Shown here in pieces: positions 36,964-40,656 of a DNA stretch of 64,000 bases. Made by a program: the position numbers and the translations under genes. The DNA comes from Microbacterium proteolyticum (lineage in GTDB: Bacteria; Actinomycetota; Actinomycetes; Actinomycetales; Microbacteriaceae), in assembly GCF_030818075.1 (NCBI RefSeq), contig NZ_JAUSZZ010000001.1, forward strand, positions 3,224,001 through 3,288,000, in the 5' to 3' direction. The notes beneath the pieces were generated by a model. The model was not told the DNA's origin, did not search any database, and saw only the letters and a list, made by a program, of their open reading frames with translations. Each line of letters opens with the position of its first letter. Within the stretch, counting starts at the first letter, position 1.

Positions 36964-38913
36964 TCAGTCGGCGGAGATCTCGACGCCGGCGGCGCGGAAC
37001 GGCGCGAGAGTGCGCTCCAGCGGCGACCAGCCGCGCGGATCGAGCGGAACGAGCACGCAACGTCCGGCCCGGGCCGCGGCGCGCTCGAGCTGAGTGCGCA
37101 GGTCCCCCGTCGCTGTTCGCGGGTCGGCACGGCCGGCGAGATCGACCGTGGGCTGGCCGTCGCTGACGATCACGAGACGGCAGCGCTCGCGCGGGGCGTC
37201 GGCGAACTCCTCGAGGGCCCGGCGCACGGCATCCGCGAGGGGCGTTCCTCCCCCGCCCTCGGCGCTCGCGCGCTGCAGCGCGGCGCGGGCGCGCGAGACG
37301 CGCGGCGTGCGCTCCTGCACGAGGCGGGCGTAGGCACCGGCGGCGAGGATCACGCTCACGTCTCCCCGGTCGCGGTAGACGTGTCCGAGGGCGACATCGG
37401 CGACGCGCCGCGCGTGGGCGGCTCCGGCGGCGCCCATCGACGACGACCCGTCGACCACGACGACCGTGTGCGTCGCCGTGGGCTGCGCGCGCAGCCGACC
37501 GCGCAGGTCGTCGCGACGGACGACGAGCTCTCCCCGCGCCCCCGCGGCCGCGTGCCGGTGCACGGCACGCTGGAGGGAGGGCAGCATCGAGATGCGGCCA
37601 TCGGCGCGTTCCGGTGCGACGATGCGTCCCGGGCGGCCGCGGCCGCTGCCCGCCCGTGTCGCACCGCGGCGGGCGGAGCGCCCCGACCGCACCGTCGCGC
37701 GCGCGGGCGGATCCGTGAGGACCGGCACGGCGAGGGCGGCCGCGCGGACGGAGGGCATCGCGTCGGGGTCGCCGTCGACCGCGGTTCCGGCCTCGGGGGC
37801 GGCAGCGCCGGCATCGCCGCGATCGGGCGCCGAAGAGCCGTGACCGCGCGGTCCATGCGACGTGTGAGGCGGCGCATCAGCGTCGGCGTCCGGTCCGCAG
37901 GCATCGCCGGCACCGGGCTCATCGGGCGCCGCGGTGCCGTCGGACGCGTCGTCGCCCGTTTTGTCGGCGCGTGTCTCGTCGGCGGGGTCGCCGCTGCCGT
38001 CGGATCCGCCGGGCTCGGCTGCGTCGACGGCATCGGGCGCGTCCGCGTCGTCGCCCCCTGCACCGGGCGGCTCCGGGCCCGTGGTGGCTTCGTCGCCGCC
38101 CTGGTCTCCTCCGACGCCGCCGCCGACCGGCTCGTCGGGGTCATCGGCATCCGATTCGGGGACGTCGTCGTCCACGGTGGCGGGGCCGGGGTCCTCGCCC
38201 GCGCCCGTGAGCCCCCGCCCGTGCGGTACCGCCACCCACGCGCGTACGACGGCGACCGGGTCGCCGTCGTAGCCCGTGTCGACGAGGGCGGATGCCAGCG
38301 CGCAGGCCGCGACGTCGAGAGCGCCGTCGTGCACGCCGTGGGCGGCGAGGGCGGCGATGACGCGACGCCAGAGTCCCGCCTCGCCCTCGCCCGGGGGCCG
38401 ACGCCCCGGCGGAACGACCGCGTCGACGTCGACGACGGCCGTGCAGCGGCGGCGGACGGCGGCGGGCAGCGTCGCCGCATCCGCGCACAGGGCGAGGGTG
38501 CGATCGGCCCGGGGCGGCGACTGGTGGGTATCCGCGAGGCGGAGGACCCCGTCGGCGTGCGGGCGCAGCTGACGGAAGAGTGTCTCGGCGCGATGCGCGT
38601 CACCCGCGAGCGCGAGCCCGAACGGCGCACCCGAGCACCACGCCTCGATCGTCGCGTGGACCGCGGCCGGCAGGACGATCTCGCCACCGAGACGAGCCCG
38701 CAGGTCGGCTGCGCGCGGCGAGGCGCTCTCGCCACCGACACGAGCCCGCGCGTCGGCTGCGCGGTCCACGCGCGGCGAGGCGCTCTCGCCACCGACACGG
38801 CCCCGCACCTCGGCTGCGCGGTCCGTGCGCGGCGAAGCGCTCTCGCCACCGACACGGGTCCGCACCTCGGCTGCGCGGGCCGCGGGGGTGGCCTCGCGCG
38901 AGCGCGTCGTCAC
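36964..38913 (-). CDS. VWA-domain protein, magnesium/cobalto-chelatase subunit D-like
   Basis: 649 aa. Partner of the AAA+ protein upstream. An N-terminal ChlD-like, degenerate ATPase region follows three 19-residue repeats (about residues 8-65). A long acidic Asp/Pro/Gly linker comes next (about 230-360). The C-terminal von Willebrand A domain has the MIDAS motif DGSSSMG (about residue 489), Thr in GGGTPLADAV, and Asp in VSDGQPT. The GTG start overlaps the preceding stop (GTGA). There is no large chelatase subunit (ChlH/CobN) in the window, so a general MoxR-like or metal-insertion remodelling role is possible. Confidence 0.85.
   Translation of the reverse strand: MTTRSREATPAARAAEVRTRVGGESASPRTDRAAEVRGRVGGESASPRVDRAADARARVGGESASPRAADLRARLGGEIVLPAAVHATIEAWCSGAPFGLALAGDAHRAETLFRQLRPHADGVLRLADTHQSPPRADRTLALCADAATLPAAVRRRCTAVVDVDAVVPPGRRPPGEGEAGLWRRVIAALAAHGVHDGALDVAACALASALVDTGYDGDPVAVVRAWVAVPHGRGLTGAGEDPGPATVDDDVPESDADDPDEPVGGGVGGDQGGDEATTGPEPPGAGGDDADAPDAVDAAEPGGSDGSGDPADETRADKTGDDASDGTAAPDEPGAGDACGPDADADAPPHTSHGPRGHGSSAPDRGDAGAAAPEAGTAVDGDPDAMPSVRAAALAVPVLTDPPARATVRSGRSARRGATRAGSGRGRPGRIVAPERADGRISMLPSLQRAVHRHAAAGARGELVVRRDDLRGRLRAQPTATHTVVVVDGSSSMGAAGAAHARRVADVALGHVYRDRGDVSVILAAGAYARLVQERTPRVSRARAALQRASAEGGGGTPLADAVRRALEEFADAPRERCRLVIVSDGQPTVDLAGRADPRTATGDLRTQLERAAARAGRCVLVPLDPRGWSPLERTLAPFRAAGVEISAD
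38720..38890. repeat. 57-bp tandem repeat, 3 copies, inside the VWA gene
   Basis: Copies begin at 38720, 38777 and 38834, each with GAGGCGCTCTCGCCACCGAC (third with one change). In the protein this is a 19-residue unit containing VGGESASPR, repeated three times near the N-terminus. A diverged related stretch, coding for the conserved LRARLGGEIVLP, lies at about 38672-38719 and looks like the source of the expansion. Confidence 0.85.
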
Positions 38914-39845
38914 GCGACGCGCCGCCCGAGCACGGACGCCGCCGCGACCCGCACGCGGGCGGCCGCCGCCGTGACCGGCTCGAGGGCCGTCCGCGGCGCG
39001 CGGTGCTGCAGGGCGGGAACCGCGACGGCCGCGAGATCGTGCACGGTCACGGCCGGCCGACCCGCCAGCGCGGCCGCCGCGCGAGCCGCCCGCACGAGCA
39101 CGAGCTCGGCGCGGTGCCCCACCGCCCGCGCATCGACGCAGATGCGAACGGCCGCCTCGAGCACGTCGTCGCCGAGGTCGACGGCGGCGCACCGTTCGCG
39201 TGCGAGGCGGATGCGCGCGGCCAGCCGCTCCTCCCGCTCCGCCCACTCGAGCGTGAAGGCCCCGGGATCCCGCTCGAACGCCACACGGCGGCGCACGATC
39301 TCCCACCGCTGCTCGACGTCGCGGATCGTCGCGACCGGCGTCGACAGGCCGAAGCGGTCTTCGAGCTGCGGGCGCAGTTCGCCCTCCTCGGGATTGCCGC
39401 TGCCGACCAGCACGAACCGGGCGGGGTGCGTGTGGCTGAGACCGTCGCGCTCCACGGTGTTCACGCCCGACGCCGCGACATCGAGCAGCAGGTCGACGAG
39501 GTAGTCGTCGAGCAGGTTGACTTCGTCGATGTACAGGATGCCGCCGTGCGCCGCCGCGAGCAGCCCCGGCGCGTAGGCGATCTCACCGCGGAGCGCGCGG
39601 TCGATGTCGAGCGATCCGAGTACGCGGTCCTCGCTCGCCCCGAGCGGCAGGTCGACCACGGGCATGTCCAGTCCCTCGCGAGCGAGCAGCTGCCCGAGGC
39701 CGCGCACGGTGGTCGACTTCCCCGTCCCCCGATCGCCGAGCGCCAGCACCCCGCCGACCGCGGGGTCCACCGCGCAGAGGGTGAGGGCGTGGCGCAGCTC
39801 GTCCTGACCGATGACGGCGGTGAACGGGAAGACGGGTGAGGTCAT
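38910..39845 (-). CDS. AAA+ ATPase, magnesium-chelatase subunit I-like (ChlI/BchI family)
   Basis: 311 aa. P-loop GDRGTGKST (about residue 39), Walker B ILYIDEVNLLDDYLVDLLLDVAASG with the ChlI-specific insertion, sensor 1 VLVGSGNPEEGELRPQLLDRF-type sequence, and Arg-rich lid. Such proteins pair with VWA subunits to load metals or remodel partner proteins. ATG 39845 is 7 bases after a TACAAT -10; the alternative ATG at 39854 would sit within that promoter. A 21-bp Fur-family palindrome overlaps the -10, so the operon should be metal-regulated. Confidence 0.9.
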   Translation of the reverse strand: MTSPVFPFTAVIGQDELRHALTLCAVDPAVGGVLALGDRGTGKSTTVRGLGQLLAREGLDMPVVDLPLGASEDRVLGSLDIDRALRGEIAYAPGLLAAAHGGILYIDEVNLLDDYLVDLLLDVAASGVNTVERDGLSHTHPARFVLVGSGNPEEGELRPQLEDRFGLSTPVATIRDVEQRWEIVRRRVAFERDPGAFTLEWAEREERLAARIRLARERCAAVDLGDDVLEAAVRICVDARAVGHRAELVLVRAARAAAALAGRPAVTVHDLAAVAVPALQHRAPRTALEPVTAAAARVRVAAASVLGRRVA

Positions 39846-39852
39846 GGCATCC

Positions 39853-39877
39853 ATTGTATTGAGAACGCTTCTCAATA
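39853..39877 (-). promoter_or_regulatory. Promoter of the chelatase-like operon with Fur/Zur-type operator
   Basis: The -10 TACAAT (minus strand, 39858-39853) overlaps by two bases a 21-bp perfect palindrome (39857-39877): arms TATTGAGAA and TTCTCAATA with a 3-base centre. The core TTGAGAA-N3-TTCTCAA is characteristic of Fur-family (Fur, Zur, Mur) operators. A bound repressor would occlude the -10 directly. Which family member binds is not decidable from sequence; Zur is my first guess. Confidence 0.75.
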
Positions 39878-39894
39878 GATGGACGCCTCGATGC

Positions 39895-40656
39895 TCACCT
39901 CAGCGCGAGCGTCCGCTCCGCAGCGCTCACGAGCGCGCGTCCGTAGGAGGGGCCGTGACCTGCCGCGTGCACCGCCAGCGGGTGGAGCTGATGGAGGGGC
40001 ACGCGGGCGCGCCATCCCTCCCGCAGGGGGTGAGCCGCGTCGTAGGAGGCGACGATCTCTTCGAGGAACGGGCACCCGAACAGGGCCAGCATCGCCAGGT
40101 CGGTCTCGCGATGGCCGCCGTGCGCCGCGGGATCGATGAGCACGACACCCTCGTTCGACCAGAGGACGTTCCCCGCCCACAGGTCGCCGTGCAGGCGGGC
40201 AGGAGACTCGTCGTCGTCGAACGCGCCGTCGGCGATGAGGGCGCACGCGCGGCGCACCAGCGCTGCCCCGGATGCCGAGAGGTTGCCGGCGGCGACGGCG
40301 ACGGCGAGGAACGGCTCGACGCGCTGGGCGGCGTAGAACGCTCCCCAGGTGGGGGTGGGGCGCGCGGGTTGAGAGCGCCGGCCGATGAAGATGTCGCCGC
40401 GCCAGCCGGGCGGCGGCGAACCGAACGCGTCGGCACCGGCCGCGTGCGTCGTGGCGAGCGCGGCGCCGAAGGCACGGGCGGCGTCCGCCGTGGGTCGCGC
40501 TTCACCGACGCGTTCGAGGGTGATGCGTCCCTCGACCACCTCGACGACCCGGGCGATGCGCGCACCGCGCGCCTCAGCGAGCCAGCTCAGTCCCGCGGCC
40601 TCGGCGGCGAAGAAGCCGGCGGGCGCATCGGACCGGGTCTTCACGTGCTGTTCCAT
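39895..40656 (-). CDS. Fructosamine kinase family protein
   Basis: 253 aa. FN3K/APH-like kinase that phosphorylates fructosamines or ribulosamines, repairing glycated amines. Catalytic loop LHGDLWAGNVLW and the Mg-binding LIDPAAHGGHRETDLAML are clear; GAFYAAQRVEPFL matches the family. ATG 40656. It ends 17 bases before the Fur-type operator of the next operon, so it is separate from the chelatase-like genes. Confidence 0.9.
   Translation of the reverse strand: MEQHVKTRSDAPAGFFAAEAAGLSWLAEARGARIARVVEVVEGRITLERVGEARPTADAARAFGAALATTHAAGADAFGSPPPGWRGDIFIGRRSQPARPTPTWGAFYAAQRVEPFLAVAVAAGNLSASGAALVRRACALIADGAFDDDESPARLHGDLWAGNVLWSNEGVVLIDPAAHGGHRETDLAMLALFGCPFLEEIVASYDAAHPLREGWRARVPLHQLHPLAVHAAGHGPSYGRALVSAAERTLALR

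Follow-up and report, generated by a model that had tools for sequence, protein, structure and literature searches.

A predicted Zur operator on the promoter of a ChlI- and ChlD-like gene pair in Microbacterium proteolyticum and its relatives in more complete chelatase-type operons

Organization of the locus

In a stretch of 64,000 nucleotides of the Microbacterium proteolyticum genome (the window, hereinafter), two adjacent minus-strand genes code for a ChlI/BchI-like AAA+ ATPase and a ChlD/BchD-like protein with a von Willebrand factor A (VWA) domain, and are preceded by a palindrome that we predict to be an operator of the Fur-family regulator Zur. This element, TATTGAGAACGCTTCTCAATA, occupies 39857..39877 and is a perfect 21-bp palindrome of the form 9-3-9 (TATTGAGAA-CGC-TTCTCAATA). 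It shares 2 bp with the -10 element TACAAT (39853..39858, minus strand), which takes the form TANNAT in all six carriers of a six-species alignment. The probable start codon of the ATPase is the third ATG (39843..39845, minus strand), 7 nt downstream of the -10 element, a spacing that is identical in the six species; the minus strand here reads TATTGAGAAGCGTTCTCAATACAATGGATGCCATGACC. Seven nucleotides between a -10 element and an ATG is the spacing expected of a leaderless start, and the AAA transcript is probably leaderless. Upstream, on the same strand, a fructosamine-kinase-like gene (39895-40656) ends 17 bp from the palindrome. The first-pass annotation of the window had described a perfect Fur-family palindrome on the -10 element of a leaderless, chelatase-like AAA+/VWA operon, and both the motif and the identity of the genes bear this description out.

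A search of the window for the core TTGAGAA-N3-TTCTCAA at up to 3 mismatches returned a single match, the operator itself (mean for shuffled sequences 0.29). Across the whole genome (3,767,688 bases) the core has one exact match, and five places match at up to 2 mismatches versus none for the reversed control; the looser pattern TGANAANNNTTNTCA has seven exact places and six more with one mismatch, against zero in the control. A matrix trained on five other sites of the same genome ranks the operator first among 63,982 window positions.

The AAA protein (311 aa; 38910..39845, minus strand) matches the Pfam models PF01078, PF07728 and PF17863 and the NCBIfam models TIGR02030 and TIGR02442, its scores against the ChlI and cobaltochelatase models falling below their cut-offs. 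Its closest solved structure is BchI (1g8p, E 7e-88), and it retains an intact Walker A motif (GDRGTGKS), Walker B motif (LYIDEVN), sensor and arginine finger. The VWA protein (649 aa; 36964..38913, minus strand; P0121) matches PF13519 and PF00092, as well as BchD (2x31, E 9.7e-8). Its GTG start overlaps the stop of the AAA gene (GTGA), and the two are therefore probably translationally coupled. It comprises an N-terminal domain without a Walker A motif (residues ~66-227; 38233..38718, minus strand), an acidic disordered linker (residues ~228-428; 37630..38232, minus strand) and a VWA domain with an intact metal-ion-dependent adhesion site (MIDAS; DGSSS, T, D) at residues ~476-649 (36967..37488, minus strand). 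The AlphaFold model has a mean predicted local distance difference test score (pLDDT) of 59.5, with the N-terminal domain at ~60-85, the linker below 50 and only the VWA domain firm, and a structure search with it returned matches filled by VWA domains. Motif comparison suggests that the N-terminal part is probably a degenerate AAA-like domain. The pair thus combines a ChlI/CobS-like AAA+ subunit with a ChlD/CobT-like subunit bearing a C-terminal VWA domain and MIDAS, as in the class I metal chelatases. Separately, near-repeats spaced ~60 bp apart (CTCTCGCCACCGACACG...) are seen by eye at the start of the VWA gene (38680-38890), and they give the protein a longer N-terminus than most relatives have.

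Assignment of the operator to Zur

The genome encodes two Fur-family proteins, one of which is the last gene of a znuA-znuC-znuB cluster that itself starts with a site of the operator kind (L007; znuC named by eye). The closest PDB entries of this protein, the genomic Zur, are 3mwm (E 3e-37) and 7vo0 (7e-37), which by alignment are the same Zur of S. coelicolor, followed by FurB of M. tuberculosis (2o03, 2e-33), the next entry lying at 1e-15. A further sister site separates aztA from aztB in a zinc transporter locus of the aztABCD kind, for which AztB and AztC exceed their NCBIfam cut-offs and AztD falls far short. In L009 a site lies between the genes of a FecCD-type importer and those of an ABC exporter pair. 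Two more precede genes for a COG0523-type GTPase (L010; CobW_C domain, weak ZigA match) and for a protein that looks secreted and has a pro-kumamolisin domain (L149). These five sites make up the training set of the matrix; they were picked by their neighbouring genes, save for that of L149, which was picked by motif alone. The TGANAANNNTTNTCA place at 561658 (L146), beside which no zinc gene was seen, was excluded from the Zur set, and the six one-mismatch places were likewise left out. The actinobacterial Zur box has been described as a 21-bp palindrome (PMC2823685) with the core tGaNNatSatNNtCa (PMC5472717); the operator fits this box as TGAGAA-CGC-TTCTCA, with two of the lower-case core positions differing.

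Given the palindrome, an encoded Zur orthologue, and the presence of the motif both at other zinc genes and on this promoter, the element is very probably a Zur operator, and we regard Zur control of the pair as well supported. No site at up to 3 mismatches was found at the efeUOB-like iron operon of the window (~44-48 kb, named by eye). As the other sites lie mainly at zinc genes and none lies at this operon, the metal is most likely zinc rather than manganese or iron. The first-pass annotation had left the repressing metal among these three, and had anticipated a site at znuABC, among others, if the regulator were Zur or Mur; the znuA-znuC-znuB-zur cluster does carry a site, and control by iron or manganese is judged unlikely from the location of the sister sites.

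Three of the sister loci display features of their own. At L149:1490-3015 (G000:C1, about 1,576,200), the gene for the pro-kumamolisin activation-domain protein has a Zur box with a perfect core ~50 bp upstream; a protease within a zinc regulon would be unusual. At L009:5822-9415 (G000:C1, about 852,800-856,400), the divergent ABC exporter-type gene pair shares its box with the FecCD importer, and such an exporter-importer combination under Zur could serve a metallophore. Divergent to the COG0523 gene, at L010:5322-6200 (G000:C1, about 3,736,300-3,737,200), are genes that by eye code for an ArsR-like regulator and a small His-rich repeat protein, the latter possibly a zinc store or buffer.

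Conservation in the Microbacteriaceae

The AAA gene was recovered from 6 of 366 Microbacterium genomes and from 2 of 299 genomes of a family-wide sample, namely M. proteolyticum (G000) and a representative of another Microbacteriaceae genus (G764). A sample of the order yielded three matches in 297 genomes: G000 itself, plus two that were partial and lay within long frames. Among the best 30 of 31 matches of a plasmid search, identity did not exceed 65.1%, coverage was partial, and no Microbacteriaceae were named. In all six Microbacterium carriers the pair is flanked by the fructosamine-kinase-like gene and a DedA gene.

The operator is present in every one of these six species as TTGAGAA-N3-TT[CA]TCAA with a varying centre, and the spacer ahead of it varies. 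Four species keep a perfect palindrome over the full 21 bp; one arm is altered in G1020 and the outermost pairs are lost in G986. A variant site, TTAATGAGAACCCATATCATTAA, occupies the equivalent place in G764. With the five-site matrix, the best site of the locus falls at the start of the AAA gene in all seven Microbacteriaceae carriers, with scores of 15.6-21.8 that none of 3000 shuffles reached. In G764 (L125, G764:C1:1019000-1038900) the pair sits amid genes that, by eye from their translations, are amidohydrolase-like, XdhC-like and molybdenum-cofactor-looking.

Across the six Microbacterium species the ratio of nonsynonymous to synonymous differences (pN/pS) is 0.10 for the AAA gene, whose neighbours, the fructosamine-kinase-like gene and DedA, stand at 0.22 and 0.17, respectively; purifying selection on the AAA gene is strong. 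In the VWA protein the ratio is 0.22-0.39 for blocks of the VWA domain (0.22-0.24 in its core), 0.45-0.53 for the N-terminal domain and 0.6-0.9 for the linker. These values therefore point to a working pair rather than a relic.

Complete operons in other actinobacteria

The large subunits of class I chelatases, ChlH and CobN, are covered by the Pfam model PF02514. At E <= 0.001 this model found no match in any of the seven Microbacteriaceae carriers (genomes 94-99.95% complete), including M. proteolyticum itself; the earlier remark that the window contains no chelatase large subunit thus holds genome-wide. Of 14 control genomes, 5 were positive in the same search, as were all four carriers examined outside the family.

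Those four carriers came from wider samples. In the class sample, 36 of 394 genomes gave matches, mostly fused genes of one family, the short kind of AAA gene being confined to Phytoactinopolyspora (G250) and Nonomuraea (G457). A scan of genome contigs for kin gave two kin loci among 80 (L014, L015); the rest are mostly BchI-type genes from other phyla and were used as outgroups and background. In the order of Nonomuraea, only the query genome itself matched at E <= 1e-90 (1 of 297). In a tree of 44 AAA sequences, the present branch forms a clade of 30 rows (support 100/99), apart from both BchI and the fused mycobacterial ChlID; its named rows are actinobacterial but for one, a Bacillota metagenome-assembled genome.

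In three of the four non-Microbacteriaceae genomes, those of Phytoactinopolyspora, Nonomuraea and Corynebacterium parakroppenstedtii (L015), a second PF02514 gene adjoins the AAA-VWA pair and stands immediately upstream of the AAA gene. The product of this second gene reads THGALEFMPG where the canonical CobN proteins of the four genomes have KHG[NT][LM]EWLPGK, and it is 31-41% identical to six BchH-like proteins (drawn from nine long BchH-like rows) versus 26-32% to canonical CobN; judged by sequence, it is a ChlH-like subunit. A protein search with the ChlH-like subunit missed that of Nonomuraea, which is 57% identical, and the silence of this search on Gordonia, Mycobacterium and Nesterenkonia is no evidence.

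In Phytoactinopolyspora and Nonomuraea, genes for a FecCD protein, an ATPase and a binding protein precede the ChlH-like gene (the Nonomuraea ATPase being named by eye), and the locus-best Zur-like site falls at the FecCD start in both, scoring 19.5 (0 of 3000 shuffles) and 14.2 (1 of 3000), respectively. Inside the three operons with a ChlH-like gene, the AAA start itself lacks a Zur-like site (scores 0.7, 0.0 and 0.5). Hoyosella has no adjoining PF02514 gene, and its locus-best site lies directly ahead of the AAA gene (12.4; 4 of 3000 shuffles). For comparison, the highest score is 10.5 among 27 control loci of the class sample (L096-L122), which hold more distant ChlI-type genes, mostly fused; across 78 loci of the contig scan (1.27 Mb), chance alone gives scores of up to 15.9. 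Between the two complete operons the importers match at 56% and 41% identity, and the FecCD of M. proteolyticum is 39% identical to that of the Phytoactinopolyspora operon. The Phytoactinopolyspora binding protein (L126:3700-5541) consists of two tandem units, each aligning to the single unit of its Nonomuraea counterpart.

Functional implications

The balance of the evidence tips slightly towards the proposal that the Zur-repressed, probably leaderless operon codes for the ATP-driven motor part of a class I metal chelatase, with a ChlI-like ring and a ChlD-like adaptor, which now acts on another partner. We take the enzyme to be a chelatase or de-chelatase of zinc starvation, with its large subunit lost or replaced, and infer that the ChlH-like subunit was lost in the Microbacteriaceae rather than gained late elsewhere. 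When zinc is plentiful, zinc-loaded Zur would sit on the palindrome and cover the -10 element; when zinc is short, Zur would come off and the motor would be made. In the complete form, a set comprising the FecCD-type importer and the ChlH-, ChlI- and ChlD-like proteins, with a Zur-like box at its start, might take up a metal-ring complex and remove or exchange the metal using ATP. The simplest guess at the substrate is a tetrapyrrole such as zinc coproporphyrin: zinc-binding coproporphyrin III is made by an actinobacterium (PMC6104308), so a zinc porphyrin would be a plausible substrate, and the accessible text of that paper makes no mention of Zur, a zincophore or zinc acquisition. As the ChlH-like subunit is missing in the Microbacteriaceae but the motor is retained, the latter would have to drive another metal-holding partner, for which the first candidate would be the COG0523 GTPase that shares the regulon. 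The first-pass annotation had suggested a metal-loading or metalloprotein-remodelling role; this is possible, and descent from a de-chelatase is at least as likely. In this regard the function that we propose is a reasoned guess. A bolder version, that the actinobacterial zinc-starvation chelatase, with its Zur-controlled importer, strips zinc from porphyrin-type zincophores (zinc coproporphyrin III, for example) using ATP, and that the Microbacteriaceae motor, freed from ChlH, was reused on a protein or GTPase partner to move zinc, strikes us as rather doubtful.

Several observations weigh against the reading of the pair as a Zur-controlled chelatase motor. A strict sigma-70 scan reported no promoter at the operator locus, where a consensus -35 element is absent. 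The AAA gene has a rare and patchy distribution. The sites of G986 (15.6), Nonomuraea and Hoyosella score below the best chance value from unrelated loci, and these weaker sites therefore rest to a large degree on their position. The C. parakroppenstedtii operon lacks a clear box, its best score being 7.5 (rank 5; reached by 61 of 3000 shuffles). The Microbacterium FecB is not an orthologue of the binding protein of the complete operons (25% identity over 215 aa, E 0.002), and for this reason we do not claim the same importer substrate for Microbacterium and the complete operons. Finally, with no large subunit found, the pair in the Microbacteriaceae cannot work as a known class I chelatase.

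Among known systems, the pair resembles magnesium chelatase (BchHID/ChlHID) in its I-type AAA+ subunit, in its D-type subunit with an N-terminal domain lacking Walker A, an acidic linker and a VWA domain, and in the ChlH-like subunit of the three sister operons. It differs in that no H subunit was found in its Microbacteriaceae carriers, in its Zur-type operator, and in belonging to a clade separate from BchI. Microbacterium is not known for bacteriochlorophyll. The fused ChlID of aerobic cobaltochelatase (TIGR02442 type, mycobacteria) provides the best NCBIfam match (378.6 for the AAA and 84.5 for the VWA protein, against a cut-off of 779.45), but here the genes are two and separate, no CobN was found, the clade is another, and the distant, mostly fused control loci carry no comparable site. 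An ordinary cobaltochelatase or magnesium chelatase was accordingly rejected for the Microbacteriaceae carriers, since PF02514 found no large subunit in them.

Two further systems from other phyla bear on the link with zinc and with metal removal. The Zur-controlled PA1921-PA1925 genes of Pseudomonas aeruginosa include a class I chelatase part that is derepressed on zinc depletion (PMC4542158, PMC11761036, PMC8531726), the CobN-like PA1923 rising 122-fold in a zinc-depleted znuA mutant (PMC4542158); those papers call the role of PA1923 undetermined. There, a large subunit and a TonB receptor are under Zur, whereas here it is the motor subunits without a large subunit. The HmuS heme de-chelatase of Bacteroidota is related to CobN/ChlH and takes the metal out of a porphyrin, namely iron out of heme (PMC12583661), but it is a membrane-bound, NADH-dependent large subunit, whereas the Microbacteriaceae carriers possess motor subunits only.

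The actinobacterial loci suggest the same connection between zinc and chelatases, in two states, one complete with importer and ChlH-like subunit and the other motor-only. A comparison of the two makes it testable whether zinc is taken out of a porphyrin or the motor has a client of its own, and in the motor-only state a ChlI/ChlD pair would, unusually, have been retained without its large subunit. The pair had earlier been singled out as a candidate undescribed system. This is right in part: the pair is a branch of the known class I chelatase motor (ChlI/ChlD), accompanied in some other actinobacteria by a ChlH-like subunit; what is new, as far as the literature searched goes, is the actinobacterial branch linked to Zur, together with its motor-only form. 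Neither these nor a Zur-controlled ChlI/ChlD pair was found in that search, most subscription journals being outside its reach.

NorQ-NorD and RavA-ViaA are two-part AAA+ and VWA machines without a porphyrin subunit, and offer a model for a different function: the pair might be a protein-remodelling motor that opens a protein client and inserts, removes or swaps its metal when zinc is short, without any part for a tetrapyrrole. This is possible, if on the unlikely side. It would dispense with the missing subunit, but the AAA protein is ChlI-type rather than MoxR-type (of the MoxR-family models only bpMoxR responds, at 21.5 bits against a cut-off of 27, and ChlI-type models dominate), and three sister operons have a ChlH-like subunit.

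Improbable, in our estimate, is that the chelatase is complete and the pair serves a large subunit encoded elsewhere in the genome that is too divergent for PF02514. The purifying selection and the intact ATPase and MIDAS motifs are what a complete enzyme would lead one to expect; nevertheless, the model detects ChlH or CobN in the other carriers and in several controls, and in not a single Microbacteriaceae carrier. More improbable still is a decaying remnant of an H-I-D operon left after loss of H, with which the sporadic occurrence, the fast evolution of the VWA protein and the lack of a detected large subunit are consistent; of the three genes measured, however, the AAA gene is under the tightest constraint, the core of the VWA domain is constrained, and the operator is nearly invariant while the spacer ahead of it drifts, and a relic was judged unlikely from the selection values. 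Least credible is that the operator is read not by Zur but by the second Fur-family protein, of the FurA/PerR type, whose gene lies ~0.1 kb ahead of one for a KatG-like peroxidase: the best score around the KatG-like gene (L011) is 2.0, from an earlier matrix that included some of the tested sites and was used for this value only, no sister site lies there or at efeUOB among the iron and peroxide loci checked, and zinc-type genes (znu-zur, azt, COG0523) account for three of the five sister sites, the FecCD importer for a fourth.
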